From Bacteroidota bacterium (GTDB taxonomy: Bacteria > Bacteroidota > Bacteroidia > Bacteroidales > VadinHA17), in the NCBI GenBank assembly GCA_030706785.1, contig JAUZNW010000015.1, positions 1 to 35,282 of the forward strand: a DNA stretch of 35,282 nt. The letters are read 5' to 3'. Under the pieces are notes generated by a model that was not told the origin of the DNA, made no database searches, and was given only the letters and a program-made list of their open reading frames with translations. This document shows, in pieces, positions 5,727 to 35,282 of this stretch. Position numbers and translations under genes: made by a program. The first letter of the stretch is position 1. Every line of letters starts with the position of its first letter.

Positions 5727-5782
5727 TCAAACTGTCAGATACTTGGTTGAGAATTGATGCGTTATATATGAAAACCTGACCG

Positions 5783-9652: not shown

Positions 9653-9653
9653 G

Positions 9654-12386: not shown

Positions 12387-12390
12387 TGTA

Positions 12391-13515: not shown

Positions 13516-13543
13516 TAGTATTGTAAAAAATAGTTCTCAGGTA

Positions 13544-15709: not shown

Positions 15710-15782
15710 GTGCCTCAGCACAGGCATGATATTTGAGGTTTTAGGAATAGTCCACGACCTGCCTGGTCCAGATTTCAGTTAA

Positions 15783-16901: not shown

Positions 16902-16932
16902 TACAAACTGTCTGATCTGCATTTTTAGGCAA

Positions 16933-18057
16933 ATGAAAATAAAGAACATAATAGTAGTATTAATCCTGATCCTGATTGGAGCAAGCTGCATAACCAAATT
17001 TATCCCGGAGACCAATGAGGATAAAAATATGCTTGTGGTGGAAGGATTGATAACTGATCACCCTGAAGATAATGTTGTAAAACTTTCGTTATCGATGCCT
17101 CTCGGGGGAAGAGCAAATATTAAGCCCTTGAAAGGATGCACCGTCACCGTAACTGATGACAAGGGAAACTTATATTATTTCACCGAAACATCAACTGCCG
17201 GAACCTATAAATCAGGCATGCAGGGAATAACCGGAAGGAAGTATACCCTGCATGTAATCACAAGGGATATCCTGACAAAGAATTATTCATATTATTCACT
17301 GCCTATGGAAATGCAGCCGGTACCTTTAATCGACAGTGTATTCTATGAAAAGGTGACGATAGCTGAAAAAACAACTGAGAGACCAAAACTGGAAGGCTGC
17401 CAGGTTTACCTTAACACTCATGATCCTGCCGGAGAATGCAAATACTACAGATGGGATTTTAATGAAACATGGGAATTCCGCCTTCCTTTTGGGTATCCGA
17501 AAAACAATACATGCTGGATTTCGGATAATTCATCTGCAATAAATATAAAGAATGCGAGCCTCATGTCTGAAGACAGGATAAACAGGCTCCCAATTCGTTA
17601 TATTTCTAATGAAACAGACAGGTTAAAAGTCAGATACAGCATTCTGATAAATCAGTATTCGCTTAACATGGACGAGTTTGGTTACTGGGAGAAAATGCAG
17701 AATGTGATGCAGGATGTGGGTGGCCTTTATGATATTATCCCTGCCTTTGTTCCGGGCAATGTTTTCTGTGTGGAGGATCCTGCTGAAAAGGTCTTAGGTT
17801 ATTTCAGCGTTTCAGCTAAAACCTCAAAAAGGATTTTTATCAAGGATAATTTTTCGGGAATAGTTAACCTTTACGGAGACTGTATCAGAGATACTATTTA
17901 TGGAACCGGGCCGATCCCTAATCTGAATATCACTGTATGGATACTTGAACAGGAACTTTACGCAAGGCCCCCCTATACGGTTATTACTGATGCCAGAGGC
18001 TGTGCTGATTGTACTACCAGGGGAACAACAACAAAACCTTACTTCTGGGATCAGTGA
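16933..18057 (+). CDS. DUF4249 lipoprotein, copy 3
   Basis: This is a 374-residue third copy with lipobox GASC (Cys19), the same core motifs, and the CADC pair followed by KPYFW at the C-terminus, where copies 1 and 2 have KPDFW. It is the last gene of the cassette. Runs of DNA identical to copies 1 and 2 (for example the stretch encoding VVEGLITDHP) show that the duplication is recent or that gene conversion keeps the copies alike. The variable segment before the C-terminal motif is distinct again (CIRDTIYGTGPIPNLN). Role as for the other copies: an outer-membrane partner of the receptor is likely, cargo unknown. Confidence 0.88.
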   Translation: MKIKNIIVVLILILIGASCITKFIPETNEDKNMLVVEGLITDHPEDNVVKLSLSMPLGGRANIKPLKGCTVTVTDDKGNLYYFTETSTAGTYKSGMQGITGRKYTLHVITRDILTKNYSYYSLPMEMQPVPLIDSVFYEKVTIAEKTTERPKLEGCQVYLNTHDPAGECKYYRWDFNETWEFRLPFGYPKNNTCWISDNSSAINIKNASLMSEDRINRLPIRYISNETDRLKVRYSILINQYSLNMDEFGYWEKMQNVMQDVGGLYDIIPAFVPGNVFCVEDPAEKVLGYFSVSAKTSKRIFIKDNFSGIVNLYGDCIRDTIYGTGPIPNLNITVWILEQELYARPPYTVITDARGCADCTTRGTTTKPYFWDQ

Positions 18058-18109
18058 AACAAATAAATTCATAAAACCTACCTGTCCCGACACTTCGGTT
18101 GCGATACCC

Positions 18110-18125
18110 CACCTGAAAGGAGGTG
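18110..18125 (+). terminator. Weak candidate terminator after the DUF4249 cassette
   Basis: CACCT (18110-18114) and AGGTG (18121-18125) can form a 5-bp stem with a 6-base loop, followed by AAAATTG. There is no T-tract, so this is a weak call placed mainly because it follows the last gene of a long operon. Confidence 0.2.
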
Positions 18126-18172
18126 AAAATTGTAGAATTAATTAAGCTTCCTTTCTGGGATTCGGGTTAAAT

Positions 18173-18210
18173 CTCTGTGGATATCTATATCTTCTCTTTT
18201 GAACTCTGTG
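18173..18210. repeat. Paired CTCTGTG words in spacer
   Basis: CTCTGTG occurs at 18173-18179 (preceded by GGGTTAAAT) and at 18204-18210 (followed by TAACT), in the spacer before the Tat-exported isomerase gene. Similar words lie in the spacers near 1370 and 6998, always in gene-free DNA. Confidence 0.5.
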
Positions 18211-18256
18211 TAACTAATGTTCAGATTTCCTACTTTTATATTTTAAATTGCTAAAT

Positions 18257-19210
18257 ATGAAACAGAACAGGCGGAAATTTATCACGACCATTGCAGCAGC
18301 AGGAGCAGCAATACCATTTATTTCAGCCATTGAACCTCTGGATACATCCCCTGTAAATACAAAATTTCCAATACATCTTTTTTCAAAGCCCCTCGATGCA
18401 TACGAGTTTGATTTTATGTGCGAATGCCTTGTTAAATCAGGTATCGGCGGATTTGATTTGACCGTCAGGCCCAAGGGGAAGGCAGAACCTGCATACATTG
18501 ACTCTGTCCTCCCACGAATGGTCGAAGAAGCGAAGAAATATAACATTGCCCTCGATATGATGGTCACCGGAATCCTTTCAGCCTCGGATCCCATGACTGA
18601 GAAAATACTTAAAACCGCTTCCGGCCTGGGAATAAGAAACTACAGACTGGGCTGGTTTGAATACGACAATAAGACAGGGATACTCGAATCGCTAAAAAAA
18701 TATAAAGCTGAATTAAGGGCGATTGCCGAACTCAACCGGAAATTCAAGATACATGGTGATTATCAGAATCATTCCGGGACAATGGTGGGAGGCCCTGTAT
18801 GGGATCTGTATGAGCTGCTTCACGATATTCCGGCTGAATTAATCGGAAGCCAGTATGATGTCAGGCATGCGACTGTTGAAGGAGCCAGTTCCTGGATCCT
18901 TGGAATGCGCCTGATAGCTGATCATATAAGGTCGCTGGCAATCAAAGACTTCACATGGCTGACCATAAACGGAAAGCCCCAGGCAGTCACTGTCCCGCTG
19001 GGCGAAGGGATGGTCGACTGGGATCTTTATTTCAGCACCATAAAGGAGCTTAATATAAGCGGGCCCATCACACTGCATATCGAATATCCTCTTCTGGCAG
19101 AAGGTGAAGAAAAGCTGCCACTTTCAAAGCAGCAGGATATAATAGTTTTAAAGCTCAGGAAAGACATGGATTTCCTGAAGGGATACCTGAATAAATTCGG
19201 GCTTGTCTGA
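18257..19210 (+). CDS. Tat-exported sugar isomerase/epimerase-like TIM barrel protein
   Basis: ATG 18257 gives 317 residues starting MKQNRRKFITTIAAAGAAIP, a twin-arginine export signal, so a folded, probably metal-loaded enzyme is sent to the periplasm. The rest is a xylose-isomerase-like TIM barrel: FDLTVRPKGKAEPAYID, IHGDYQNHSG, YDVRHATVEGA, LAIKDF and LHIEY (Glu276). The usual IEHHD-type metal strand is replaced by the GDYQNHSG form typical of the exported subgroup. The reaction is not known; members isomerise or epimerise sugars or keto-sugars. It faces the GH92 gene tail to tail with 23 bases between the stops and is not part of the apiose operon. An enzyme acting on 3-keto-sugars is one possibility. 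Confidence 0.8.
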   Translation: MKQNRRKFITTIAAAGAAIPFISAIEPLDTSPVNTKFPIHLFSKPLDAYEFDFMCECLVKSGIGGFDLTVRPKGKAEPAYIDSVLPRMVEEAKKYNIALDMMVTGILSASDPMTEKILKTASGLGIRNYRLGWFEYDNKTGILESLKKYKAELRAIAELNRKFKIHGDYQNHSGTMVGGPVWDLYELLHDIPAELIGSQYDVRHATVEGASSWILGMRLIADHIRSLAIKDFTWLTINGKPQAVTVPLGEGMVDWDLYFSTIKELNISGPITLHIEYPLLAEGEEKLPLSKQQDIIVLKLRKDMDFLKGYLNKFGLV

Positions 19211-19233: not shown

Positions 19234-21429
19234 TTATCTGACAGGCATAGGTTTGTCTGTCAGCTGAAGCGTGAACCTGCTCCCTCTGACTATATCTTCA
19301 TGGGTTATGTACAAGTAGGGATATACCCCTCCATTCTTTGTGATCGCCTTTATGTATTTACTTGTAGTATTGCTGCTTACTCCGCTGATAATGAAATACT
19401 TCTTGTCCGGTAGCTGGATCTTGACCTCGTCGAATACCGGTGTTGAGATCACATATTGGTTTGATGCCGGGCATACCGGATAGAATCCCATCATTGCAAA
19501 GACCAGCCAGGCTGACATCTGACCGGCATCCTCATTCCCGCTCAAACCTCCCGGGCCTGTCCCATACTCCTCCGAGATTACAGCAAATACCCTTTTCATT
19601 GTTTTCCCGGGGTCACCTGCCATTGTATACAGGAAAGGGATCTGTTGCCCGGGCTCGTTTCCATGCCAGTAATAACCCTCATCAAAGAATTTGTCGAGCT
19701 TTGAAATAAAAGCAATATTACCCCCCATCAAAGCTGCCAGTCCGTTAACATTCTGAGGTACATACCATGTATATTGAAAGGGCGTCCCCTCACAGATAAA
19801 CTTTACCTTTTCATTTGGATCAAACGGCTCAATCCAGGTGCCATCCGAATGCCTTCCCCTTACGAATCCGGTCCTTGTATCGAACACATTCCTCCAGTTT
19901 TCAGATCTTTTCATCAGGATCTGATAATCATCCTCCTTCCCGAGGACTTTAGCAAATTGCGCCAGTGCATAATCATCCAGGGCATATTCGAGTGTTCTTG
20001 AAACCTGTTCATTTTTATGAAAAGCCTCAGGTACACTATCTTCCAGTGGGATATAGCCATACTTCAGATAGCTTTCCAGGGCTCTCCTGCCTTTGCCGTC
20101 AATATATTCTTCCCTTGATGGTATCTCGAAAGCATTCTTTCTCATATACTTATAAGCCTCTTCAGCATCGATGCCTGTAATACCCTTGAGATAAGAATCG
20201 CAGATCATTGTGCTCACATGATCACCTATCATGGCAGCTGTATAGCTCGACCATGCAGGGAATATTGGCATCCAGCCTCCCTGCTCAGCCTTCAGGATCA
20301 ATGACCTGATCATATCACGGGTCCTTACAGGTTCGAGGATCGTAAGCAGAGGATGGAGAGCCCGGTAGGTATCCCACATTGAGAAATCATCATAATAATC
20401 AAACCCTTCTGCCCTGTGGATCAGAGTATCTTCAGCAAATCCCTGATATGATCCGTCAACGTCACTTACGATTCTCGGTAGCTGATAGCAATGATAAAGT
20501 GCGGTGTAGAATTTCTTCCGATCATCTTCAGTTCCTCCCCCTACAGTGATTTTCCCAAGGACCTGATTCCATGTATCTTCCGTTGCTTTTCTTACTGCAT
20601 TGAAATCCAATGTTGTTAACTCCTTCTCGAGGTTTTGCCTGGCAGCTTCTCCGCCTGTAAATGAACTGCCAATCTTTAATGTGACAGCCTGCCCAGTTCC
20701 AACCGAGATGACCAGCTGCTGACTGCTTTTAAGATATTCTGTCACAGTAAATGGCTTATCAGGCCGGATCAAAAACCATCCGCTGAAACCTGCAGGCTTA
20801 CCCCATCCCTGGTAAATGCGGTGAACAGGATTGGTCCCGATGATCTCATTTCTCTCTTTATCCACCCATATTCTGCCTTCGTTTTTGTCGCTGTTCATTC
20901 TTATCAGGATGAATCCGGCAGATTTCCCCTGGAAAGAGAACCTCATTATTCCTGACCTTACAGATCCAGTCATCTCAGCTGTGACCTGGTAATTATCGAG
21001 TGCAAGGCTATAATATGCCGGCGTTGCAATCTCATTCCTGTGGTTCAATTTTGAAGCCGGAAGGTATCTCAGGGTATCTGGTTTTAAGGAGGTGAACGGC
21101 ATTATGGTAATACTTCCATAGTCCTGCGTACAGCTTCCACTCATCCAGTGCGTACCGCGAAAGCCTGTTATATACTTGTCAGTATAATAGTATGGTGAAA
21201 CACACTTGGCTTCAGTAGTTCTGGTCTCGGGTGTCCACTGAGTCATGCCGAACGGTCTGCCTACCCCGGGAAATGTCTGACCCTTTTCTTCAGTATCGGA
21301 ACCATGTCTCCTTGCACTTTCAGTAGCTGCCGGAGCGGTACCGACAAGCGTATTTACGTACTGAATCGGAGGCTGGGCAATTAATATTGAGCTGGTAAGG
21401 AAAAGGAATATAATTGCAGGCGTTTTCAT
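19234..21429 (-). CDS. GH92 exo-alpha-mannosidase-type glycoside hydrolase
   Basis: I start at ATG 21429, 7 bases after the esterase stop, because it gives a signal peptide (MKTPAIIFLFLTSSILIAQ) and 731 residues; the open frame to 21501 overlaps the esterase. GH92 marks are plain: DDFSMWDTYRALHPL, EGTPFQYTWYVPQ with Glu547 as the expected acid, and GNEDAGQMSAW with Asp634 as a base candidate; GFYPVCPAS follows. The family removes alpha-linked mannose with calcium. One motif is unusual: HGNEP is followed by GQQ, where many members have a residue plus HH. That loop lines the sugar pocket, so specificity may differ. It is the last gene of the apiose operon, whose likely glycans are not rich in mannose, which makes the change notable. 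Confidence 0.9.
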   Translation of the reverse strand: MKTPAIIFLFLTSSILIAQPPIQYVNTLVGTAPAATESARRHGSDTEEKGQTFPGVGRPFGMTQWTPETRTTEAKCVSPYYYTDKYITGFRGTHWMSGSCTQDYGSITIMPFTSLKPDTLRYLPASKLNHRNEIATPAYYSLALDNYQVTAEMTGSVRSGIMRFSFQGKSAGFILIRMNSDKNEGRIWVDKERNEIIGTNPVHRIYQGWGKPAGFSGWFLIRPDKPFTVTEYLKSSQQLVISVGTGQAVTLKIGSSFTGGEAARQNLEKELTTLDFNAVRKATEDTWNQVLGKITVGGGTEDDRKKFYTALYHCYQLPRIVSDVDGSYQGFAEDTLIHRAEGFDYYDDFSMWDTYRALHPLLTILEPVRTRDMIRSLILKAEQGGWMPIFPAWSSYTAAMIGDHVSTMICDSYLKGITGIDAEEAYKYMRKNAFEIPSREEYIDGKGRRALESYLKYGYIPLEDSVPEAFHKNEQVSRTLEYALDDYALAQFAKVLGKEDDYQILMKRSENWRNVFDTRTGFVRGRHSDGTWIEPFDPNEKVKFICEGTPFQYTWYVPQNVNGLAALMGGNIAFISKLDKFFDEGYYWHGNEPGQQIPFLYTMAGDPGKTMKRVFAVISEEYGTGPGGLSGNEDAGQMSAWLVFAMMGFYPVCPASNQYVISTPVFDEVKIQLPDKKYFIISGVSSNTTSKYIKAITKNGGVYPYLYITHEDIVRGSRFTLQLTDKPMPVR

Positions 21430-21436
21430 AAATAAT

Positions 21437-22855
21437 CTATTCCCAGTCATCAGTCCTGAATGATGAAGCAGGAATTCCCTCGGTGTTGAACAGATCTCCA
21501 ACTATGAAATCCCTGAATGCGTACCTTACAGCGACAGGCTCATTTACAAACGGTGACATAAGTGTGATTCCCTGATTGGTAATGAATGCAACAGCCGGGA
21601 AGAAACGTTTGTTTGCTCCCGCAACTTCGAAACAGGAAAGGGTCTTGCCGAATGATGTAAGTCCGTTGGGTGCATTGTTGAAAGTAAGTTTCACAACCTG
21701 ACCTTCCACTTTCATATCCTTCACCACCGGACCTTCACATGCAAATCCTTTTTTCCCATAGGTTTTGACCAGGGCCTGATAGGCCAGTCTCTCACCGGCA
21801 GCTTTTTTGTTTGCCGGGTGTATGCATTCTTTTTCACCTGTGTCCATTACACAAGCCATTCCCATGTTCGGAGCCGATGCTGCATTCAGCTGTGCTTCAC
21901 GCAGGTATGCTGAATTCAGGCCTGATGAACCATAGTCATAGGGGGCTATCTGAACATAATAGAACGGGAACTCTCCAACTCTCCAGGCTGATCTCCAGTT
22001 TTCAGCCAGCCCGGGAAGAAGCTTCGCATATTCCTTCGGTTCATTCCTGTTGGATTCACCCTGGTACCAGATAGCGCCGCGTATCCCGTAACCTGCTATC
22101 GGATTTATCATCCCGTTAAAAAGCACCGTCGGAGTCTGGGGTGAAAGATTTTCCTGAGGAGGCGCTGATTTGTCGGGCAGTTTGACCCAGTCGAAATTCT
22201 TTAAGCCTTCTTCGTTTATCCATGGTTCGATCCTGGTGCCTCCCCAGCTTGTGCAGATAAGTCCGACAGGGACATTCAATAACTTGTTCAGCGACGATCC
22301 GAAAAAGTAGGCAGTCGCGCTGAAATCAACCACATTTTCAGGTTCACAAAGTTCCCAGGTACCAGTGAAATTATCCATGGCGGTCAGGCTGGTTGCATGC
22401 GGGACCGTTATTAATCTTATTCTGTCATTAGAAGATGAGGCAATTATCTCGTTTGATCCAAGCACGGGCTGGTTAAGGTATCCTTTCATGGGCATTTCCA
22501 TATTTGACTGGCCCGAGCATACCCAAACCTCGCCGATAAGGACATTTTTAAAACTGATTGTCTTTCCTCCGCTGACAGTCACTGTATAAGGGCCTCCTGC
22601 GGCTGGAGTTGACACTTTTGTTTTCCAGTTACCGTTTGCATCAGTCATAGCTGAATATGATCTTCCGTTCCATGAGGTTCTTACGGAAACTTTTGCTCCC
22701 GGGCTGGCCTTTCCCCAGAATGCAGCATCAGTCTGTTGCTGCAGTACCATATTGTCCCCAAAAATTGATGGAAGAGTCAGCTGAGCTTCAAGCAGTCCGG
22801 ATGGAGTAAAGAATAAAAACAAACAGGTTGAGAGTAGAAGAATCAGTTTTTTCAT
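21437..22855 (-). CDS. Sialate O-acetylesterase-type SGNH esterase, exported
   Basis: The 472-residue protein has a signal peptide (MKKLILLLSTCLFLFF onward) and the SGNH/GDSL marks of the sialate O-acetylesterase family: WVCSGQSNMEMP with Ser117 as the nucleophile, IWYQGES at 262-268, and a C-terminal catalytic His346 in KECIHPANK. A beta-sandwich of about 90 residues comes first (MVLQQQTDAAFWGKA, GGPYTVTVSG). In plant-glycan clusters such enzymes usually remove acetyl groups from sugars rather than sialic acid. It starts 65 bases after apnO and the GH92 gene follows by 7 bases, so it belongs to the apiose operon and may deacetylate the same glycan. The exact substrate cannot be read from the sequence. 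Confidence 0.88.
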   Translation of the reverse strand: MKKLILLLSTCLFLFFTPSGLLEAQLTLPSIFGDNMVLQQQTDAAFWGKASPGAKVSVRTSWNGRSYSAMTDANGNWKTKVSTPAAGGPYTVTVSGGKTISFKNVLIGEVWVCSGQSNMEMPMKGYLNQPVLGSNEIIASSSNDRIRLITVPHATSLTAMDNFTGTWELCEPENVVDFSATAYFFGSSLNKLLNVPVGLICTSWGGTRIEPWINEEGLKNFDWVKLPDKSAPPQENLSPQTPTVLFNGMINPIAGYGIRGAIWYQGESNRNEPKEYAKLLPGLAENWRSAWRVGEFPFYYVQIAPYDYGSSGLNSAYLREAQLNAASAPNMGMACVMDTGEKECIHPANKKAAGERLAYQALVKTYGKKGFACEGPVVKDMKVEGQVVKLTFNNAPNGLTSFGKTLSCFEVAGANKRFFPAVAFITNQGITLMSPFVNEPVAVRYAFRDFIVGDLFNTEGIPASSFRTDDWE

Positions 22856-22920
22856 AGCATGAATTATTACGGGTTTATCAGTTGTGAATTTATTTCTTTT
22901 AAGGCAATTAAATCAGCCAG

Positions 22921-23748
22921 TCAGGTGATAGCTAATATCTGTTCCTTCACATTTTCCGGTTCAAAGACCTTTTTCCAGTCCTCTTTAATAAACTCCCTGA
23001 GTCCCCTTTGAAGCGCTTTGTTGGCAGCATCGGAAAAGACCGCCCCGGGGAGCTCATTGAAAAGAACTGCCATCTGAATACGGAGGTGGCCAAGAAGAAA
23101 ATCTCTTGCAGCTTCAGCCGGCACTCCCCGTCGTACTACTTCGGACAGGCCCTCGCGAATTACATAAATACAGGTCGATGCGAGCGTTTCGACAAGAGCA
23201 GGTTCAAGAAGTCCCATCTGCTCGACAGTAATCCTGTGCGCCCGGGTGACAGGGGCGTAAAATATCCTGGCCAGTTGTTCCCCCTTTATATAATCATCGT
23301 CTGTTCCTCTCATCAAAGCACATACAATTGATTGTTTTGCTGCCGTACCTCCGAAATGATCCTTCATAGCTTCTTCCTTTGGCTCCCAGTTGAAAACTGA
23401 GGGATGCGTCGGGTGTGTAATGAAGTAAGAGACGTCAGGCCTTTCGTGGAGTTTACCCGCAAGCGCTGCTGCCGGATCGAGAGTTACAACCATAGATCCG
23501 GATTTCATTATCGGTAGCATTCTTCCCGATACATCTTTTAGAGCTACGTCGGGGACAGCGAGTATTACAATATCTGAATATTTCACCGGATCAGGAGATT
23601 CGGATACGATAACACCCATCTCCCTGAGCTTTTCAATCCCTGTAGAACTGACTTCAATGTAATACATATCATATGATGAATTCTTCAGGTTACGGGTAAG
23701 CCGGAGACCCATTTTGCCTCCTGCGCCGACTAAGGTAACTTTTAACAT
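22921..23748 (-). CDS. apnO: D-apionate oxidoisomerase-like dehydrogenase
   Basis: The 275-residue cytoplasmic protein starts with a Rossmann nucleotide site, VGAGGKMG (Gly8-Gly14), and continues with ILAVPDVALKDV and a THPTHPSVF stretch. The C-terminal helical half (EQMGLLEPALVETLASTCIY) matches the phosphogluconate-dehydrogenase C-terminal-domain family that contains ApnO. ApnO oxidises and isomerises D-apionate to 3-oxo-isoapionate with NAD. Gene order supports the call: it sits 17 bases after the apsD-like gene in an operon that also has apnL-like, oiaC-like and apiosidase genes. On sequence alone it could be another acid-sugar dehydrogenase of the same family. Confidence 0.8.
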   Translation of the reverse strand: MLKVTLVGAGGKMGLRLTRNLKNSSYDMYYIEVSSTGIEKLREMGVIVSESPDPVKYSDIVILAVPDVALKDVSGRMLPIMKSGSMVVTLDPAAALAGKLHERPDVSYFITHPTHPSVFNWEPKEEAMKDHFGGTAAKQSIVCALMRGTDDDYIKGEQLARIFYAPVTRAHRITVEQMGLLEPALVETLASTCIYVIREGLSEVVRRGVPAEAARDFLLGHLRIQMAVLFNELPGAVFSDAANKALQRGLREFIKEDWKKVFEPENVKEQILAIT

Positions 23749-23765
23749 AAATGCCTGTTTTACGG

Positions 23766-24800
23766 TTATTTAAACTCTTCAATACTTATCTTTTTTCCTG
23801 AAGACGCGGATTCATAACATGCCCATATGAGCCTTACTGTTTCAAGGTTATCCTGACCAGTGTTCTCTGCCCTGGCAATACCCAGCATATCATTCAGGAT
23901 GTTACGGTTAACGTGGATGCCGCTTTCATGATTTACGATATAATCCGGATCGGCCCATGCATAGGATGGGAATTTTACAATTTCCGACATTGTGCCTTGC
24001 CGTGTCGTTACTCTTATTTCAAATCCGGGTCCGAGAAAAGCTGATCCCAGTTCTCCTTCAGTAAGTACGTGGACGGTCGAAAAAGAGTCATGTTCCACAA
24101 TGGAAGCATATGACAACTCGGAGTAAACCGGCATGCCATCCTTCATTTTCATCATGACAGTGGCCAGATCCTCACCTTTTATTCCTTTATTGACTGCAAG
24201 GGTCTGACACCACAGTTCTTCGCATTCCCCGAACAGGAACCTTATCACATCAAGAATATGGGAACCCATATCAGTAAGAATGAAATGACCAAGCTCCTTC
24301 AGGAACGGCTGGTTATCGAATACAGGATATCCTGAAAGGAAGGAAACCCTGGCTTTGAATGGTTTGCCAATGATTCCTGAGTCCAGAATCTGTCTGTACC
24401 TTCTTACCGGAGCCTGCCACCTGTAATTCTCATGGATATAAAGCTTTGCTCCGCTGGCAGCGCATGAATTCACCATCCTTTTTGCTGTTTCAAAATCTGG
24501 CGCCATTGGTTTCTGGCAAATTATTCTTTTTATACCGTATTTAAGAGCCATTTCAACAAAATCGGAATGAGTGTCAACGTCGGTTATAATATCAACAAAA
24601 TCAAGGTTTTCCTTCCTGAAAAGCTCGTCGGGATTATCATACACTTTTGGCACACTAAAATATCCGGCAATCTTTTCAGCTTTCGATCTTGTCCGGTTAT
24701 ACACAGCGACCAGCTCCGCTCCTTCAACCTCTGTCCATGCGCCGATCTGGAATTTTGACCAGAATCCGCAGCCAAGTACAGCAAATCTTAGTTTTTTCAT
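23766..24800 (-). CDS. apsD: D-apiose dehydrogenase-like Gfo/Idh/MocA oxidoreductase
   Basis: The 344-residue cytoplasmic protein has the Gfo/Idh/MocA build. The nucleotide site is VLGCGFWS at 8-15. The catalytic lysine is Lys97 in CQKPMAP, where most of the superfamily has EKP. The C-terminal domain carries TDMGSHILDVIRFLFG with His181 and Asp184. The stretches HENYRWQAPVR (123-133) and FDNQPFLKELGHFILTDM are, as I recall the family, typical of D-apiose dehydrogenases, which oxidise D-apiose to D-apionolactone. The neighbours (lactonase, oxidoisomerase, decarboxylase, apiosidase) agree. Spacing is 25 bases after the oiaC-like gene and 17 before apnO, so it is within the operon. The main alternative is a dehydrogenase for another branched or keto sugar. 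Confidence 0.8.
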   Translation of the reverse strand: MKKLRFAVLGCGFWSKFQIGAWTEVEGAELVAVYNRTRSKAEKIAGYFSVPKVYDNPDELFRKENLDFVDIITDVDTHSDFVEMALKYGIKRIICQKPMAPDFETAKRMVNSCAASGAKLYIHENYRWQAPVRRYRQILDSGIIGKPFKARVSFLSGYPVFDNQPFLKELGHFILTDMGSHILDVIRFLFGECEELWCQTLAVNKGIKGEDLATVMMKMKDGMPVYSELSYASIVEHDSFSTVHVLTEGELGSAFLGPGFEIRVTTRQGTMSEIVKFPSYAWADPDYIVNHESGIHVNRNILNDMLGIARAENTGQDNLETVRLIWACYESASSGKKISIEEFK

Positions 24801-24825
24801 TATCTGAGATTATTTTCTTATCATT

Positions 24826-25638
24826 TTAGTCCCAAAGTATTGATTTCATGTACTTTATGCTTTTATCGGCCCAGTCGGATTCCTTTAACACTGTGTCATT
24901 TAATTCCGGTTCAGGAGGTGTCCAGAGCTCAAGTATTGCACTTTGGCATATTCCGATTTCATTCAATTCAGACAGAAGTTCCGGGATTTTAAGCATACCT
25001 TTCCCTGCAGGTCTGCCCTCAACGATCAGCCCCATCCTGTGCGATATCCTGAAAATTGTGAAATCCTTAACGTGGAAGTTGATAGTGTAAGGAATAAGTA
25101 TCTCAGAAACAGTTTCGAATCCCTCGCCGGCTCCCATCGAATTGACCGAGTCAAGGCAAATCCCGACCATGTTGCTTCCAACTGACAGAATTATTTTCTC
25201 AAATTCCCTTGCTTTGAACCTGTCATGATTCTCAATTGCGAGCTTTATCTTTCTTGATTCGAATTCCGGAAGGAGATCTTTAATAGTATCAATTACTGTT
25301 TGGAGTCCGGGTTCAAATCCCGGAGAATCGATGACCATTCTAAGTAGAGGTGACTGGAGTTTTTCGGCAGTCAGGAGGCAATTAATTGTATGTTCCGGAG
25401 TTAGACCTCTTCCGGCCATTTCGATTGATACATTTTTCCCTCTGGCATAGTTAAGAAGATCATCGAGCTTCTCTTCCCCCAGGTTTTCAAGAGGAAGATT
25501 ATCCGCAATCTGTAAAAGCTCAAGACTGGCATTGAAAGTCTTGTCGATCAACCCAATGTGGGATAAAGGGAATTCAGGCATAAAACCCGGAACACCGACA
25601 GCCCAGGTATATGTATATGAACTTAAACCAAGTTTCAT
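24826..25638 (-). CDS. oiaC: 3-oxo-isoapionate decarboxylase-like TIM barrel protein
   Basis: The 270-residue protein has no signal peptide and is a xylose-isomerase-like TIM barrel. Likely metal ligands are Glu136 (IENHD), Asp163 (CLDSV), His189 (NFHV) and Glu237 (ILELW). The opening LGLSSYTYTWAVGVPG and the LLQIADNLPLENL stretch resemble OiaC, which decarboxylates 3-oxo-isoapionate to L-erythrulose after ApnO. It lies 9 bases after the apiosidase gene and 25 before the apsD-like gene. On sequence alone this fold covers many isomerases and epimerases, so the reaction rests partly on the operon. No kinase or L-erythrulose isomerase follows, so the later steps would be encoded elsewhere. Confidence 0.72.
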   Translation of the reverse strand: MKLGLSSYTYTWAVGVPGFMPEFPLSHIGLIDKTFNASLELLQIADNLPLENLGEEKLDDLLNYARGKNVSIEMAGRGLTPEHTINCLLTAEKLQSPLLRMVIDSPGFEPGLQTVIDTIKDLLPEFESRKIKLAIENHDRFKAREFEKIILSVGSNMVGICLDSVNSMGAGEGFETVSEILIPYTINFHVKDFTIFRISHRMGLIVEGRPAGKGMLKIPELLSELNEIGICQSAILELWTPPEPELNDTVLKESDWADKSIKYMKSILWD

Positions 25639-25647
25639 CTCAGCCTC

Positions 25648-27039
25648 TCATGGTTTGTCAAAATTCCTTGAAGCATCGTCAAGCACCAGGATCCAGTCGT
25701 TTCCCCGCCCTCCGGATGGCGGAGTAAATTTTTTTGTGCCTTTTCCGGAAATCGTTTCAACCGGCTTCATTTCACCTGTTCTAGGATCATACCATGATAC
25801 ATTGATTTTTTCTGCACCTATCTTGTCAAGGACTATTTCGGCAGGCCATCCGGTCGGAAAGTATACAAAAGCGTATCCTTCGCCGCGTGTGGCAACCACA
25901 TAGTCAGTTTCAGGATAATACGAAGGCCCAATCAGCGACTGGTCAGGGATTCTTGAAAGGAATGGACGCGATTCTATCAGTCTCCTGGCATGAATAAGAT
26001 CGAAAGCTCCAGGCAGATCAAGTACATCATACCAGTTATGCCTGGCCAGTCCGACAGCTTCCCTTTCCGGCGTCTTCATTTGCCAGACCGGATGGCATCC
26101 ATAGGTGTGCCCGAAGGAACCGCTGAAGAGATTCCAGTAAAGTGCCTGCCGTATATCTTCATGATTGAACCAGCCAAGTACCTCAGGATTCCATCCGACC
26201 GGATGGTCTTCATACCTTGGTTCACCGTCAAAGCAGGGTTTGACAGGTTCCAGATTATAGTCGCGGACAATCAGTCTTTTATAAATAGCATAGCTGCGCT
26301 GTCCGTGACCTGTCTGGCACATATTGAAATCGAGCCATGTACTGTTCTGGAACCAGTCTGACGAACTGCGCTCACCTCCCGGATGGTAAGTCATCAAATG
26401 GTTCTTATCAACTGATTTTATGCCATTCCCTATAGCTTCCCACACAGGTTTGTTATCTCCGCCATCACGATCGCCACCATTTATCCAGATTATGTTCGGG
26501 AAATCCTTGTATCTCGATCCTATCCATTGCCCGTATCTGAAGGCATTATCCTTGTTGAAGATCACAGGTCCCTTTCCCCATTTTTTATCAACCTTGTCGC
26601 CCCATGTAGGAAGCAGCCCGATGTAAATACCCTTTTCAGCAGCTTTATTTATTACCCAGTCAACATGCCTGAAATAGGCTTCATCTGGTTTAAGGGGGTC
26701 ATTACCGATAAGCGGTTTGTTTCCTTCTGCATTTGGAGTATCGAGACCATCGAGTTCGGCCAGGACAACTGCCTGGATGACTGTGAAACCCTTCGCGCGG
26801 CGGTTCTCAAGGTATTTTTCCGTTTCTTCCTTATTAAGACGGTGGAAAAGCTCCCATCCGGTATCGCCCAGATAAAAGAAGGGAGTCCCGTCCTCATGTA
26901 TCAAAAAGCGTTTATTCTCCGATACTTTCAGATTGCCGTGAGATAAATCAACAGATGGTCCGTTCCAGAATTTTTCCTGGGAAAATCCTGCAGAAGAAAA
27001 TAAAATCAAACCTGTAACAAAAAAGAGGGATTTATGCAT
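25648..27039 (-). CDS. GH140-type apiosidase (DUF4038), exported
   Basis: The 463-residue product has a signal peptide ending near SAGFSQ and acts outside the cytoplasm. The DUF4038 barrel shows the expected marks: LKVSENKRFLIHEDGTPFFY, LGDTGWELFHRL, IIWINGGDRDG with Asp190, and CFDGEPRYED with Glu273, which fit the Asp/Glu catalytic pair of GH140. A C-terminal beta domain (about 375-463, YAFVYFPTGWPAEIVLDKI) is the usual collagen-binding-like module. GH140 hydrolyses the linkage between D-apiose and galacturonic acid in rhamnogalacturonan II. Not all DUF4038 proteins are apiosidases, but four apiose-pathway genes beside it make that reading likely. It lies 13 bases after the permease gene. 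Confidence 0.85.
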   Translation of the reverse strand: MHKSLFFVTGLILFSSAGFSQEKFWNGPSVDLSHGNLKVSENKRFLIHEDGTPFFYLGDTGWELFHRLNKEETEKYLENRRAKGFTVIQAVVLAELDGLDTPNAEGNKPLIGNDPLKPDEAYFRHVDWVINKAAEKGIYIGLLPTWGDKVDKKWGKGPVIFNKDNAFRYGQWIGSRYKDFPNIIWINGGDRDGGDNKPVWEAIGNGIKSVDKNHLMTYHPGGERSSSDWFQNSTWLDFNMCQTGHGQRSYAIYKRLIVRDYNLEPVKPCFDGEPRYEDHPVGWNPEVLGWFNHEDIRQALYWNLFSGSFGHTYGCHPVWQMKTPEREAVGLARHNWYDVLDLPGAFDLIHARRLIESRPFLSRIPDQSLIGPSYYPETDYVVATRGEGYAFVYFPTGWPAEIVLDKIGAEKINVSWYDPRTGEMKPVETISGKGTKKFTPPSGGRGNDWILVLDDASRNFDKP

Positions 27040-27052
27040 TTTGAGAAATTGT

Positions 27053-28054
27053 TTAACCGATTCTTGCCCAGACTATCAGGACAAGGCCTATCAGGTAGAA
27101 CGTAAACATCAGTGTTAAAAGCAGGTTTGTACCTTTTGGAGCGTCCCTGAATTCCTTCCAGACAAAAATTCCCCAAAACGCTGCCACAACGGGAGCCGCG
27201 TTGCTTAAACCGTAAGAGATTGCAGGACTTGCGGCTCCCACCGACATAAAACTTGCCGAATTGCCAAGACACCAGATGGCTCCGCCCAGCATTCCGATGA
27301 GGTGTGCCCTGACTGGGCCACTGAACCATTGCGATATTTTTACAGGCTTCCCCTGAACCGGGTTCGCCATAAAAAGCGGATTCACGAGAATAGTGCTGAT
27401 TAGAGCGCCGATGGAGAAAAAGACGACCGCAGTATACGAGCTTATCTTACCGGCATCGGCAGGAGAGAAATCTGATGCCAGAGATAAAGCAACAAACCTG
27501 TAGAAGAATGCTATACAGATACCTGCCAGAAATGCGAGCAGTATACCCAGAAAAGAAGGCTTTTTCAGAAAGGTTGCCAGCTTCCTGTAAGACTGCATGC
27601 TGAAAAGTATCGCAAGGATTATGATCAAAGTACCCCCAAAAAGCAGGTAGGGATTTCCTTCTGGTTTCCCAAGATAGTTGATAAGTATGCCAAGTGTCCA
27701 TCCAATACCTCCTCCAATTGGGAATGCAACTGACATTCCGGCTATCGATATAGAGGCTACGAGTAAAAGGGTACCGACATTCCAGATAAATCCGCCAACA
27801 GCCGAGGAAAACAGATAACGCAGATCAGCCTGCTCAACATCAGGTATAAAACTACGTCCCTGACTGCCAAGGCTTCCGAATGTAAAAGCCATTAATAGGG
27901 CAAAAAGAAGAATACCTATGGAATAATCCCAGTAATAGAGTTCGAACCGCCACTCTTTACCAATAAGATTCTGAGTGTTCTGCCATGAGCCCCAGCATAT
28001 CATAGCAATAAAACAAAGGAATACTGCAAGTGAATAGTTTTGAATAAGTACCAT
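27053..28054 (-). CDS. DMT-superfamily sugar permease, probable D-apiose importer
   Basis: The 333-residue protein is almost all membrane, with about ten hydrophobic helices, and belongs to the drug/metabolite transporter superfamily in the sugar/ureide permease-like group (GRP, RhaT or UPS-type). The first helices carry AMICWGSWQNTQNL and FELYYWDYSIGILL, and FPIGGGIGWTLGILIN follows. It lies between apnL and the apiosidase, 48 bases after apnL and 13 before the next gene, so it probably imports the sugar freed by the apiosidase, by proton symport in related proteins. That cargo is inferred from context. A related permease for another small sugar is the alternative. Confidence 0.8.
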   Translation of the reverse strand: MVLIQNYSLAVFLCFIAMICWGSWQNTQNLIGKEWRFELYYWDYSIGILLFALLMAFTFGSLGSQGRSFIPDVEQADLRYLFSSAVGGFIWNVGTLLLVASISIAGMSVAFPIGGGIGWTLGILINYLGKPEGNPYLLFGGTLIIILAILFSMQSYRKLATFLKKPSFLGILLAFLAGICIAFFYRFVALSLASDFSPADAGKISSYTAVVFFSIGALISTILVNPLFMANPVQGKPVKISQWFSGPVRAHLIGMLGGAIWCLGNSASFMSVGAASPAISYGLSNAAPVVAAFWGIFVWKEFRDAPKGTNLLLTLMFTFYLIGLVLIVWARIG

Positions 28055-28102
28055 GTGAGATGGGTTAGGTGATAATAAAATTAAGAAATTATTCAGTTGG
28101 AT

Positions 28103-30070
28103 TTATTTTTTAAGCCATCCTTCGATAAAACATATCGAAAAGGGTTCCATGATCAATGGCATACCTGCCCGGACCATTTTTTCACCGGTTTCTCCTCTCC
28201 ATTTATAATTTGAAGCCGCTTCACTGTAATTGCGGCTGTTTAATTCCCGAAGCCTCATCATTCCCTTGCATCCCGTTATTATTGCTGTTATCCTGTCTTT
28301 GGTAAAATTGACAAGTATCATTCTTACTTGTTTCCCATCCGACAGTACGAGCGAATCCGCAGACAGGGGTTGTGAGCTGGATGATCCTATTACTTTTAAG
28401 GATCTGTTTGCCTGGAGGTACCTGAAAATAAAATATACCGGGAAGATCATTCCGCTGTAAGCAGGGAATTCCTGCGGCCACCGGGAACTGTATTCTCCCT
28501 GCATGATACCTCTCTCACCCGCTGTTTCGTAGTACGTGACGCCGGCAATATTATTTCTGCAGAGGTATTTCAAACTGATCGCAGTCCAGCCTGCCCCTAA
28601 TAACGACATAATTCTTGCATCGATCTGTGGCGGAATTTCGTGACCGGTAAAAGGCTCTTCTATGAAAGATAAGTTCGCATTGAATCTTCTCTGGATGTTT
28701 ACAGGCGAGATCCATATTGCAGATCCGTCTGCAAACTCTGCAGCACTTCTTACAACATCTTCCTGTGCAGCTAGGTTCTCAATCAGCGTCTGGTTATCCG
28801 ATGCATGTTCCTGAGGTTGGATTGAAAAGGTAATGAAGTCGGCCAGTCGGGCTGGCTGCCGGTTCCTGTTCAACTGTACAAAGTTGGCATTTGTACCAGT
28901 CCCTGTCTTTATATCCGGTAAAAGAGTTTTAAAAACAGGAATAACCTTTTCTGCTATTTCCTTAGGTGTTGCAGGAAATGATTTATGAAATAACAGTAAG
29001 CATAAAACCCCGGGCTGTGCAGATTTAAGCCAATCACAAAATTCCTTCGTCTGTATTTCATAATTATCATCTACAAACAGGACGAACTCGATCTTTGCTG
29101 CAAGTTTTAAAGCTTCGTCCACCGCTTTTATAGCAATCTCTTTCCATCCATTTTCGAACAACCGGACTTCGATCCTGTAATGATCAAATCTCAGCGGCCT
29201 TAGCAATCTTAATTCTGCCCCGGAGAGAGGCTCTGCCCTGGTTGCACGGGCTATCCCAATTGACGGCACTTTTACTGATATTTGCGGATCGAGTGATATT
29301 CTTGCAGCCTTCTTTTCAGACTGATTTTGAACCGGGAAATTTTCGGCCCTGAAAACAATTCTCTGCTTTATTGAAGTTCCTTCATGGACAATGACCGGAA
29401 ATGGTTCGGAAAGAGGTGTGCAGTATGTTTTAAATGAAGCATCCGTCCAGTTCCGCTGATCCTCGGTTTCAAAAACGTCTCCTTCAAAATCAAGAGAACA
29501 GGTGCCTTCAGCTACCTGCCATTTCATTGATTTAATGTCCAGAAAGGGCTGATGAGGCTGAACAAACTCCGGGAAAAGAGAGTTTTCAACAATGCCATTT
29601 GTATGTGTTATAAAACATACTTTTCCTGCTGTGTTCTCAATGGGATGGAGGATACAAAAACCTATACGATTTTTTTTGAAGGTCCTGGTCGCAATACCGT
29701 CCATGCTGAAGATGATTGAATTATCAATTCGTCCTTCAATTTCAAACCTGGCTGTAAAATCAATTTCTGCTGAGATATATCTGCAGGAGAATTCTAACCG
29801 GAATGAATCAGATCTGATGTTGTATTTTTTTTCAGATATGGCGGGTGTGATTGTCAGCCATTCAGGATCTCTCACAGAAGCATAAATCCTTCTGATCAGC
29901 TCATTGTTCCCAATTGAAATATATCTCAGGGATCCATTAGATAAATGCATGGTGAGATTACCTGCCATGAGTGAAATTTCCAAAGGATCTGCTTCAGACC
30001 TGCCGGTATTTTTTATCCGATCCGGCAATTCCCGGATATATTGCATCATTGGGTCATGTACGAAATCCAT
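28103..30070 (-). CDS. apnL: D-apionate lactonase-like protein
   Basis: The 655-residue protein has no signal peptide, so it is cytoplasmic. An N-terminal beta domain (about 1-250) carries the motif EDQRNWTDASFKTY at 203-216, which I recall as typical of ApnL. A TIM-barrel-like middle part follows (about 260-560, with GTGTNANFVQLNRNR near 390-404), then a small C-terminal beta domain. ApnL opens D-apionolactone, made by ApsD, to D-apionate. It is the first gene of the minus-strand operon, with 48 bases to the permease gene. The start could also be Met8. The family assignment is by memory of the motif and context, and a search would settle it. Confidence 0.8.
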   Translation of the reverse strand: MDFVHDPMMQYIRELPDRIKNTGRSEADPLEISLMAGNLTMHLSNGSLRYISIGNNELIRRIYASVRDPEWLTITPAISEKKYNIRSDSFRLEFSCRYISAEIDFTARFEIEGRIDNSIIFSMDGIATRTFKKNRIGFCILHPIENTAGKVCFITHTNGIVENSLFPEFVQPHQPFLDIKSMKWQVAEGTCSLDFEGDVFETEDQRNWTDASFKTYCTPLSEPFPVIVHEGTSIKQRIVFRAENFPVQNQSEKKAARISLDPQISVKVPSIGIARATRAEPLSGAELRLLRPLRFDHYRIEVRLFENGWKEIAIKAVDEALKLAAKIEFVLFVDDNYEIQTKEFCDWLKSAQPGVLCLLLFHKSFPATPKEIAEKVIPVFKTLLPDIKTGTGTNANFVQLNRNRQPARLADFITFSIQPQEHASDNQTLIENLAAQEDVVRSAAEFADGSAIWISPVNIQRRFNANLSFIEEPFTGHEIPPQIDARIMSLLGAGWTAISLKYLCRNNIAGVTYYETAGERGIMQGEYSSRWPQEFPAYSGMIFPVYFIFRYLQANRSLKVIGSSSSQPLSADSLVLSDGKQVRMILVNFTKDRITAIITGCKGMMRLRELNSRNYSEAASNYKWRGETGEKMVRAGMPLIMEPFSICFIEGWLKK

Positions 30071-30206: not shown

Positions 30207-31823
30207 ATGAAAAGATTGATTTACATATTATTTGGAGTGTTCTTAATGCTTGAGTGCTCCCATAAAGGAAAAGTATCAACAGTACAGCCTTCAAATGACA
30301 CAGTACTTATCAGTGATACGATTCAGTACCATCCGGTAAGGGTAAGCAGACTGGACGGGTCTATATTACCGTGGTTCTCGGCCGATAAGGGTAAGTCGTT
30401 CGATACTGTGTTAATGCTTGTCTGGAATTTCTGGAAAAACATGGAAACGGACTCAAATGGGCTGAAGTACTACATGAATCATCAGGTGTGGAAACCGCAA
30501 CATGATATGAGAGGCCTGGGAGGTGACCAGATTAACATGGCGCTGTCTTCATGGGCTTTACTCTATGCATATGCCGGTGATACTGAGGTAGTTAAAAATA
30601 TGAGATACCTCGCTGATACTTACCTGGCAAGATCATTGTCAGCACCTACTGACAGCTGGCCTTTCATTCCTTACCCGTACAATACTGATGTTCATTTGGG
30701 TATATATGATGGCGACATGAGGAACGGGAAATTTATTACACAGCCTGATAAGGCCGGAAGTTTCGGATATGAACTGATAACCTTGTACAAGATCACCGGA
30801 AACAAAAATTACCTGGAAGCGGCCAAACAGATAGCTGGAACGCTCATCAGCAAACTGCAAAAAGGAGATGAGACAAGGTCTCCGCTACCGTTCAGGGTGA
30901 ATGCAAGAACTGGACAACCGGGATATCTGACTGAAGATACAAGATCAGGTAAACTGGTACAGCCTGCATTGTATACTTCAAACTGGACAGGCACCATGAT
31001 GCTGCTTGAGGAATTGAAGAAGCTGGATTCTGAGAAGAAGGTGTATTATGAGACAGCCTTTAATAGAATACTTGACTGGATGAAATCATACCCTCTCAAA
31101 ACAAATAAATGGGGACCCTTTTTTGAGGATGTCCCCGGCTGGAGCAATACCCAGACCAATGCTATCACATTTGCCATGTTTATTCTGAACCATCGTGACC
31201 TTTTTCCTGAATGGAAAAAGGATGTAAAAAGCATAATTGACTGGACCTATTCAGAACTAGGAAACCACGATTATGAAAAATACAAGGTGGTAGTGATGAA
31301 TGAGCAGACCGTGTACAGGGTCCCGGGTAACAGTCACTCTTCGAGACAGGGATCTGTCGAGCTGATGTATGCTGTACTCTCAGGCGATACCTCATATACT
31401 AAAAATGCAATCCGTACCCTGAACTGGGCTACCTATACAGTTGCCGGTGACGGCCGTAACCGTTATATCCGCGATGATATCTGGCTGACAGACGGTTATG
31501 GCGATTATGTCCGTCATTATCTCAGAGCAATGGCTGCCATGCCTGAGCTGGCTCCTCCCGGCAGGAACAGGTTACTGGGATCAAATTCGGTTGTGAAGTA
31601 TATCAGATACCTATCAGGATCAATAACTTACACCACCTATGATCCAGAATCAAGGGAGGTGCTGCGTCTGACTTCCAGGCCAGTATCTGTCATGGTCAAT
31701 GGGGCAAAGCTGAGTGAATCAACAGGCAGCACCGGAGAAGGGTGGAACTGGGAACCTCTTGGTACCGGAGGAATTTTAAGGATCTGTCACTCATCCGGAG
31801 TGAATGTAAAAATAGTTCTTTAA
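30207..31823 (+). CDS. Alpha/alpha-toroid-like lipoprotein, unknown glycan-active enzyme
   Basis: The 538-residue protein has a lipoprotein signal (lipobox LECS, Cys17). The main part, about 70-430, is a row of helical hairpins of the six-hairpin-glycosidase kind: SSWALLYAYAGD, FGYELITLYKITGNKNYLEA, NWTGTMMLLEELKKL, NTQTNAITFAMFILNHRDLF and SVELMYAVLSGDTSY. A C-terminal beta domain (about 460-538) follows. I do not recognise a catalytic motif or a named family. Similar folds include glycoside hydrolases, uronyl epimerases and lyases. It is divergent from the apiose operon and may share its control. Its stop overlaps the stop of the methyltransferase gene by 4 bases. Confidence 0.65.
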   Translation: MKRLIYILFGVFLMLECSHKGKVSTVQPSNDTVLISDTIQYHPVRVSRLDGSILPWFSADKGKSFDTVLMLVWNFWKNMETDSNGLKYYMNHQVWKPQHDMRGLGGDQINMALSSWALLYAYAGDTEVVKNMRYLADTYLARSLSAPTDSWPFIPYPYNTDVHLGIYDGDMRNGKFITQPDKAGSFGYELITLYKITGNKNYLEAAKQIAGTLISKLQKGDETRSPLPFRVNARTGQPGYLTEDTRSGKLVQPALYTSNWTGTMMLLEELKKLDSEKKVYYETAFNRILDWMKSYPLKTNKWGPFFEDVPGWSNTQTNAITFAMFILNHRDLFPEWKKDVKSIIDWTYSELGNHDYEKYKVVVMNEQTVYRVPGNSHSSRQGSVELMYAVLSGDTSYTKNAIRTLNWATYTVAGDGRNRYIRDDIWLTDGYGDYVRHYLRAMAAMPELAPPGRNRLLGSNSVVKYIRYLSGSITYTTYDPESREVLRLTSRPVSVMVNGAKLSESTGSTGEGWNWEPLGTGGILRICHSSGVNVKIVL

Positions 31824-32821
31824 AGGATTGAGGCTTTCCTCATAGCCAGAAGGTTTTTATGAGGGGTCAGAACTGTTATTTCACAGCCGGCAGCAAGCAG
31901 ATATTTCTGATCTTTATATTTTTCAACCAAGGCTCTTGAAAAGCTGTAGACTTCTTCTTCTGATTTATCCTGGACAAATACCGGATTAATATTTCCACCC
32001 AGTACAACATTGTTCCCAAGGATATCTCTTGCCCTGTCCAAATCAACCTGCCAGTCAAGATCAATGATATCAGTATTTAGATCTTTCAATGATTCAAGCA
32101 GATGTGTTATATCGCCGCAGATGTGCAATTTAACGGAAGTTCCTGATTCGTGGATATATGAAATAAGTTCCATGTGCCTTTGTTTAATATAGGTGTCATA
32201 GGTACACTTATCGATCTGTGAGCAAATTGCATCCCCGATACCGATAAGATCACAGCCGGCTTCGATCTGTGCCCCGGCAAAATCCTTCGCGGTGATCATG
32301 CATTTGTCTATCAGTGAATTTGAGAGGTCAGGGTCTGTCATCAGATAGTAAAGCATCTCACTGACCCCGGTAAGATCGCATGCCTCAGCAAGTGGCCCTT
32401 CAATCCATCCGCTGACCGGGACACTGCCTTTAAGAAGCTTCTTATAATATTCTGCCCCTTTTATCCTGTCGAGGGTCCGTTCACATTTATAGACATCCGG
32501 ATTACGAAGATCTCTGACATCCTCAGGCGTTTTCACAATATTATTAAGACACCTTGGGACCCCTTCCTCAATATACTCAATCCTTGCTCCGAAAGCCGAA
32601 GTTTCACGATAAGGATCGGAGATCAGAGAGACCATGTCTGTATCGAAATATTCCATTGCCCGTATATTGCTTTCAACCAGGATCTTATAATCTGAAGCAA
32701 ATTTGCCGTAGGTTGTACGATTGAATCTTGCAGCAAAATGCATGAGGATAGGGCGGAAAAATACTTTATTCCCATTTTTACTGCCGCTTAATAATGACCT
32801 GTACTGTTCAAGTTTATTCAT
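31820..32821 (-). CDS. URO-D/MtaA-like zinc methyltransferase
   Basis: The 333-residue cytoplasmic protein has the uroporphyrinogen-decarboxylase fold. A likely zinc site is visible: His233 and Cys235 in KLHICGD and Cys313 in AAGCEI, the His-x-Cys...Cys pattern of MtaA/CmuA-type corrinoid methyltransferases. True HemE enzymes lack this site. Such enzymes move a methyl group between a corrinoid protein and a thiol. No corrinoid protein is encoded nearby. It follows a DUF6259 gene by 52 bases on the same strand. Removal of methyl groups from methylated sugars is a possible role but is only inferred from the glycosidase neighbours. Confidence 0.72.
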   Translation of the reverse strand: MNKLEQYRSLLSGSKNGNKVFFRPILMHFAARFNRTTYGKFASDYKILVESNIRAMEYFDTDMVSLISDPYRETSAFGARIEYIEEGVPRCLNNIVKTPEDVRDLRNPDVYKCERTLDRIKGAEYYKKLLKGSVPVSGWIEGPLAEACDLTGVSEMLYYLMTDPDLSNSLIDKCMITAKDFAGAQIEAGCDLIGIGDAICSQIDKCTYDTYIKQRHMELISYIHESGTSVKLHICGDITHLLESLKDLNTDIIDLDWQVDLDRARDILGNNVVLGGNINPVFVQDKSEEEVYSFSRALVEKYKDQKYLLAAGCEITVLTPHKNLLAMRKASIL

Positions 32822-32873
32822 TTTCCTGTACCTGTTAATTTGAAGTTCCCGTCATTGCAGTCAGAACCACCGG

Positions 32874-34691: not shown

Positions 34692-34705
34692 ATTCCGGTT
34701 ATTTT

Positions 34706-35282
34706 TCAATATATCTGCCTTATCTCGAACACGTTTCCGTCATAATCATTTGTCAGGATTACATTAAATCCTTCGGTTGCCAGTTGCTTCCCTGTCAGGA
34801 CAGTCACAGATTTTCCCAGCGGTGCCAGCAGGACTGAATATCTTTTGTATGGATCGAGACCGGGGAAAGTTACAATCCTGGATTTTTCCCTGGATCCCTG
34901 CCTGAAGACTCCCAGGATTCCTCCGTTCTTTTTTTCGGTGTTAATGCGTGCCCAGGCATCCCAGGAACCTTCAGCCGGTTCCCCGAAACCGGGAAGATCC
35001 TGCCTGAAAGACATATAATCATACTTACCCTGCATGCTTACCATCCAGTCAGCCCACTTCTTTATTTCTGCCCTTTTCTCCTGTGACAGCTTTCTTGGAT
35101 CACCGAGAACGATAGGAAGTGTCCCTATCAGTGATTTCAGGTCGAAATCGAAGTTTTTACTGTCAAGAGGAAGGTTTCCTATCACGAGTGATCCTGCCGG
35201 TACTGCAGGAGATCGCCACCATGCCAGTTGCCTCATTCTGAGAGCTCCGGTCGGGAATGGCTCTTCAATGTTCGACAGCCAG
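34706..35282 (-). CDS. C-terminal part of a probable exported glycoside hydrolase
   Basis: The frame is open to the right edge and the first 15 codons (from 35281) read in phase with the first visible Met, so this is the C-terminal end (about 190 residues) of a longer protein. It has the look of the end of a catalytic barrel (AWWRSPAVPAGSLVIGNLP, LIGTLPIVLGDPRKLS and KWADWMVSMQGKYDYMSF) followed by a C-terminal beta domain (LLAPLGKSVTVLTGKQL, GFNVILTNDYDGNVFEI). It resembles the end of GH36- or GH97-like enzymes, but I cannot name the family. Its stop lies 14 bases before the ATG of the DUF6259 gene, so the two are likely co-transcribed. Confidence 0.55.
   Translation of the reverse strand, partial: WLSNIEEPFPTGALRMRQLAWWRSPAVPAGSLVIGNLPLDSKNFDFDLKSLIGTLPIVLGDPRKLSQEKRAEIKKWADWMVSMQGKYDYMSFRQDLPGFGEPAEGSWDAWARINTEKKNGGILGVFRQGSREKSRIVTFPGLDPYKRYSVLLAPLGKSVTVLTGKQLATEGFNVILTNDYDGNVFEIRQIY

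Follow-up and report, generated by a model that had tools for sequence, protein, structure and literature searches.

The window, by which the whole analysed stretch of 35,282 nucleotides of the Bacteroidota contig JAUZNW010000015.1 is meant and from whose first letter all window coordinates are counted, was found to hold a row of eight genes which is very probably a real operon for the release and use of the branched plant sugar D-apiose, a conserved variant of known chemistry and not a new kind of system. What is new here is that a GH140 apiosidase and a GRP-type permease are joined to the known apiose pathway in a member of the Bacteroidota. The eight co-directional open reading frames occupy positions 30070 to 19234 of the minus strand and encode, in order of transcription, an ApnL-like protein, a permease, the GH140 enzyme, a triose-phosphate isomerase (TIM) barrel protein, a Gfo/Idh dehydrogenase, a PGDH_C protein, a SASA esterase and a GH92 enzyme, with intergenic gaps of 48, 13, 9, 25, 17, 65 and 7 bp, the last of which applies if GH92 begins at the ATG at 21429; a TTG start at 21501 overlaps the esterase gene. 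A preliminary description of this DNA had proposed such a minus-strand row of eight genes with gaps of 7 to 65 bases, and both coordinates and spacing were borne out. Its further proposal of an eight-gene pathway holds for the six genes that it named (GH140, permease and the ApsD-, ApnL-, ApnO- and OiaC-like genes) but not for the SASA and GH92 genes, which have no role on the way from apiose to L-erythrulose. The spacing suggests that all eight genes are transcribed as a single unit and, judged from sequence, an inducible-looking operon for D-apiose release and use is the likely explanation of the row as a whole.

By alignment, the GH140, ApsD-like and ApnO-like proteins match solved proteins strongly and over their whole length. 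For the ApsD-like dehydrogenase the best match in the PDB was 5uhw (229 bits over residues 2-340), titled only 'oxidoreductase' in the database and presumably an Agrobacterium apiose enzyme, the next of the 67 matched sequences reaching 85 bits. Reciprocally, the Ensifer Gfo/Idh gene adjoining ApnL, i.e., Ensifer ApsD, retrieved the window protein at 231 bits, with the next protein of this genome at 42 bits. The ApnO-like protein matches PF16896 (PGDH_C) with 204 bits and the PDB entries 5t57 and 3c24 with 288 and 206 bits respectively, and is about 50% identical to rhizobial proteins over its full length, whereby PGDH_C architecture, full-length homology and an apiose context come together; in the NCBIfam scan no model matched either this protein or Ensifer ApnO as ApnO. 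The apiose interpretation of the preliminary description is thus supported, as several members having their best matches in a different pathway was looked for and not found. Within the genus this place in the operon is filled by either of two ApsD clades, one of the window type (76-82% identical to the window ApsD) and another of 43-51% identity which groups with Prolixibacteraceae in the tree, as if the ApsD gene had been replaced in place. The loci L024, L027, L028, L029, L034 and L035 differ in ApsD clade from the other congener loci, L029 and L034 being partial.

The release step is assigned to the GH140 enzyme, which matches the Pfam family PF13204 (Apiosidase) with 414 bits (cut-off 26.5) and in addition PF12904. 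The preliminary description named BT1012 as the GH140 enzyme for comparison; the best solved relative is 8t9w, a named Apiosidase (494 bits), while 3kzs and 5msy, the latter of which we take to be BT1012, reach 313 bits. Asp190 (in GGD) and Glu273 (in DGEP), presumably the catalytic pair, align with conserved acids in all three PDB chains, and the enzyme probably cleaves beta-apiosides. Viral contigs searched with it yielded no relative. In locus L026 (5686-6935) the GH140 gene is split into two reading-frame pieces by a frameshift or a sequencing error. The permease matches Ureide_permease (87 bits) and Sugar_transport (33 bits), with RhaT at 30 bits lying far under its cut-off, and possesses seven hydrophobic segments by hydropathy. 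Relatives were found near ribokinase in three Bacteroidota plasmid records (Spirosoma, where it lies two genes away, Parabacteroides and Flammeovirga), so the family stands close to ribose transporters and fits pentose import; apiose is the likely substrate. In other taxa a ribose-type ABC transporter takes the place of the GRP permease. The SASA esterase matches PF03629 with 59.5 bits, and GH92 matches PF07971 and TIGR01180 with 558 and 578 bits. Export signals, for which N-termini were judged by eye and by hydropathy instead of by a dedicated predictor, were seen on GH140, SASA and GH92 and on none of ApsD, ApnL, ApnO and the TIM barrel. The natural reading is therefore that apiose is set free outside the cytoplasm, taken in by the permease and then processed inside the cell in four steps. 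With rhamnogalacturonan II (RG-II) considered as sole apiose source, GH106 matches were located at six places on five contigs of the window's own genome. GH28-like proteins and proteins with a GH141 insertion domain adjoin the apiose operons of relatives (L031:1367-2671, L033:3862-4854, L026:11616-13733), hinting at a pectic source.

Among the known branches of apiose breakdown, the genomes examined point to that via OiaC. A RuBisCO-like protein was found in none of the 15 genus genomes with full-length ApnO, the window's own included, and one was found in G235; the SBD_N kinase was not found in the window's genome, and the 4 of 16 genomes that do carry it have it on contigs other than that of ApnO. 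The first of these findings speaks against the OiaX and OiaT branches. The TIM barrel, which matches PF01261 (AP_endonuc_2) with 70 bits, has weak PDB sequence matches and was matched by no model in the NCBIfam scan, is hence proposed from its context and from the lack of a RuBisCO-like protein in all 15 ApnO-bearing genus genomes to be an OiaC-like 3-oxo-isoapionate decarboxylase, the most tentative assignment of the operon. When 84,980 species genomes were scanned with an OiaC alignment, 230 stretches were matched, among them 198 relatives, of which the best 80, including contigs of the window's congeners, were counted. These 80 loci hold ApnO in 59 cases, ApsD in 51, ApnL in 42, GH140 at no less than 300 bits in 25, the permease in 21 and an OiaX-like gene in 12. 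ApnO, ApsD and ApnL occur together in 33 of the 80, 13 of these with a strong GH140 and 10 with OiaX.

The gene grouping is conserved in related genomes. Of the 117 genomes in the family, 15 carry full-length ApnO, and each of these belongs to the window's genus (two further matches were weak); a sample of 394 other genomes of the phylum added one. The comparison covered 16 related loci, 15 from 14 congeners and one from another family, many on cut contigs. ApsD directly precedes ApnO on the same strand in 13 of them, the row GH140-OiaC-ApsD-ApnO is kept in eight and the longer row ApnL-permease-GH140-OiaC-ApsD-ApnO in five; ApnO is followed by SASA in five and by GH92 in three. Genome-wide, an OiaC relative and ApnL were each found in 12 of the 15 genus genomes with ApnO. 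Full sets including GH140 also occur in Fibrisoma, Flexithrix, a KSB1 metagenome-assembled genome (MAG) and an Ulvibacterium MAG, so this genome is not alone in having the arrangement. In L023, L026, L030 and L035 a gene of 421-426 amino acids follows ApnO, and the three that were scanned (L023, L026, L035) encode a PQQ_2 beta-propeller. GntR-type regulators with a periplasmic-binding-like domain were seen in the apiose loci L026, L032 and L038 and in others such as L058 and L065, and none in the window operon.

From gene families, gene order, sequence-based compartments and conservation we infer the transported substrate and the following reactions, with the decarboxylation being the most inferential. 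The exported GH140 would cut beta-apiosyl links in the periplasm, where the esterase and GH92 may assist it on the same glycan, and the GRP-type permease would import the apiose thus released. ApsD would then oxidise apiose to apionolactone, ApnL would open the lactone to apionate and ApnO would convert apionate into 3-oxo-isoapionate by oxidation and hydroxymethyl migration, which the TIM barrel would finally decarboxylate to L-erythrulose.

A number of observations weigh against this scheme, and the alternatives that they raise differ in weight. That the eight genes are chance neighbours forming no single unit is highly improbable. Promoter- and terminator-like sites leave the matter where it was, since their counts are at chance level (28 sigma-70-like sites versus 30.1 in shuffled sequence, 12 terminator-like sites versus 12.5) and thus prove nothing for or against one unit; however, next to the short gaps, the order recurs in related loci and clusters of these gene types are seen in several phyla, which makes the grouping more than chance. 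Strict linkage is not universal: both OiaC and ApnL are missing from G053 and G080, whose ApnO is the most divergent of the genus (66-67% identity), G062 lacks OiaC, G056 lacks ApnL and G058 carries OiaC and ApnL on another contig than ApnO. ApnL was expected to match a known apionolactonase, and it does so at full length (NF049900, D-apionate lactonase, residues 19-593), but its 259 bits fall far short of the cut-off (750), so the window protein is a homologue outside this equivalog as drawn, while Ensifer ApnL scores 816 bits. It has no Pfam match and no visible signal peptide, and is 46-49% identical to five of six congener and Ensifer rows and 26% identical to Ensifer ApnL. Its predicted structure (predicted local distance difference test, pLDDT, 91.7) contains a glycoside-hydrolase-like barrel whose top matches are GH30 xylanases, matched partially at a query TM-score near 0.4. 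This ApnL-type lactonase also has an invariant cluster of E201, E203, D204, R206, N207, W208 and D210. The operon might serve another branched or keto-sugar glycan, with dehydrogenase, lactonase and oxidoisomerase homologues shifted in substrate. This idea draws on the distance of ApnL and of ApsD (34%) to the Ensifer proteins, on SASA and GH92, which are unexplained by apiose and point to other sugars, and on the Pfam Apiosidase family, which also contains proteins of other function. It is nonetheless quite improbable, as the GH140 with its match to a named Apiosidase stands for a gene type found beside the full catabolic set in 13 of the 80 loci, and two independent lines agree on one sugar.

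The doubts concerning the last step are greater. The model of the TIM barrel (pLDDT 96.1) has an Art22 isomerase and D-tagatose 3-epimerases as nearest folds, none of the 50 structural matches listed is a decarboxylase, and the residues E136, D163, H189 and E237 are invariant. ApnO, ApsD and ApnL were all absent from the stretch examined in 12 of the 80 loci, several of them short contigs. In 12 of the 80 the TIM barrel stands alongside an OiaX-like gene (L074, L084, L086, L093, L094, L096, L104, L105, L107, L108, L115 and L123), where a further decarboxylase would not be needed, and in the TIM-barrel tree the rows with OiaX fall within, and not apart from, those without it. The gene between OiaX and ApnO in L074 codes for an OiaK homologue, which like the OiaX homologue scores below its NCBIfam cut-off. 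The contigs of L093 (a Bacteroidetes MAG) and L127 (a Bifidobacterium breve MAG) look misplaced, and two trees put L093 in close company with Chloroflexi rows. Taken together, the folds, the conserved residues and the occurrence both with and without OiaX would suit a reading that keeps the apiose pathway but takes the TIM barrel for an isomerase or epimerase of L-erythrulose or of some related keto-sugar, with 3-oxo-isoapionate, a beta-keto acid, shedding its CO2 spontaneously or via another enzyme. This is considered unlikely, since OiaX and OiaT candidates are found in none of the 15 genus genomes, leaving the TIM barrel as the only local candidate, and since an Erwinia operon contains ApnO, a DAK-type kinase and a distantly related TIM barrel (25% identity), a combination that the OiaC role predicts. 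For the window, no known exit for L-erythrulose is seen, because Dak1 (the DhaK-type kinase) was absent from all 16 genomes searched, the own genome included, with positive controls. An L-erythrulose kinase was also sought among ten proteins of the apiose loci of other taxa, namely ABC transporter parts, sulfatases, a DUF5060/Apiosidase protein, a DUF6786 protein and one OiaK-like protein, without a new kinase candidate emerging. Given that a DhaK-type kinase, a RuBisCO-like protein and, in the own genome, an OiaK-type kinase are missing, it is conceivable, if rather doubtful, that the genus finishes apiose breakdown by an unrecognised route in which the TIM barrel does not, or not only, decarboxylate but might, for example, isomerise L-erythrulose for a novel kinase or aldolase.

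The genes of the proposed apiose operon are listed below in order of transcription.

Table. Genes of the proposed apiose operon in the window.
Feature	Coordinates	Strand	Basis
ApnL-like D-apionolactonase, 655 aa	28103..30070	-	NF049900 match
GRP/DMT-type sugar permease, 333 aa	27053..28054	-	Ureide_permease, Sugar_transport
GH140 apiosidase, N-terminal export signal, 463 aa	25648..27039	-	PF13204 + PF12904
OiaC-like TIM barrel, proposed 3-oxo-isoapionate decarboxylase, 270 aa	24826..25638	-	PF01261, context
ApsD-like D-apiose dehydrogenase, Gfo/Idh/MocA family, 344 aa	23766..24800	-	5uhw match
ApnO-like D-apionate oxidoisomerase, 275 aa	22921..23748	-	PF16896, 5t57 match
SASA-type carbohydrate acetylesterase, exported, 472 aa	21437..22855	-	PF03629
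GH92 glycoside hydrolase, exported	19234..21429 (or TTG 21501)	-	PF07971, TIGR01180

Upstream of ApnL, a comparison of ten loci for a Bacteroidota-type promoter motif gave one TAnnTTTG match (L056) and none in the window, and no 9-mer was common to four or more of them; scanning the window for Rfam families and tRNAs gave no match. A SusD partner next to SusC, as would mark a SusC/D polysaccharide utilisation locus, was not seen: none of the window open reading frames scanned matched a SusD family, and the TonB receptor at 9615-12386 adjoins DUF4249 proteins. Upstream of the operon (31820-35281, minus strand) a UROD/MtaA-type protein, a DUF6259 protein and a GH36 C-terminal fragment are encoded. 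Convergent to it (4943-19210, plus strand) lie genes for a 3-keto-disaccharide hydrolase, DUF6340, GH29, the TonB receptor, three DUF4249 proteins, an MG2 protein and a second TIM barrel, and members of this set also adjoin the ApnO gene in L023, L028, L030, L031, L035, L036 and L037.

The operon places apiose release, uptake and oxidation together in one Bacteroidota unit and renders apiose use predictable from genomes which the NCBIfam cut-off for ApnL would miss. Moreover, it exposes a gap between L-erythrulose and central metabolism, which a DhaK-type kinase would otherwise bridge. The findings are useful for annotation.

No paper on a GH140-ApsD-ApnL-ApnO-OiaC cluster was found in the open-licence PMC literature. 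The non-phosphorylating D-apiose pathway ApsD-ApnL-ApnO-OiaC, from which the chemistry of the steps is taken, was reportedly described by Carter and co-workers in Nature Chemical Biology in 2018; the window holds adjacent homologues of all four steps but differs in that GH140 is present, a GRP-type permease replaces the ABC transporter, ApnL falls under the NCBIfam cut-off and OiaC is assigned by context. The rhizobial locus on Ensifer canadensis pT173d, which is ordered ApnO, ABC transporter, ApsD, ApnL and then OiaX (NCBI name), shares ApnO, ApsD and ApnL with the window, whereas it carries the ABC transporter and OiaX and shows no GH140 within the 18.8 kb displayed. On the plasmid of Erwinia sp. 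E602 the TIM barrel lies between a DAK-type kinase plus a triose-phosphate-isomerase-like protein and ApnO; it thus likewise adjoins ApnO, but kinase and TIM-type isomerase are at hand for the next steps and GH140 is absent. A Rhodobacteraceae strain with genes for apionolactonase, ApsD, ApnO, OiaK and OiaX is reported to grow on D-apiose (PMC11747546). Bacteroides thetaiotaomicron BT1012 is described as beta-apiosidase of RG-II breakdown (PMC7939467). The window enzyme is of the same GH140 type, though closer to 8t9w than to 5msy, and unlike that of BT1012 its gene sits with those of the intracellular apiose enzymes.

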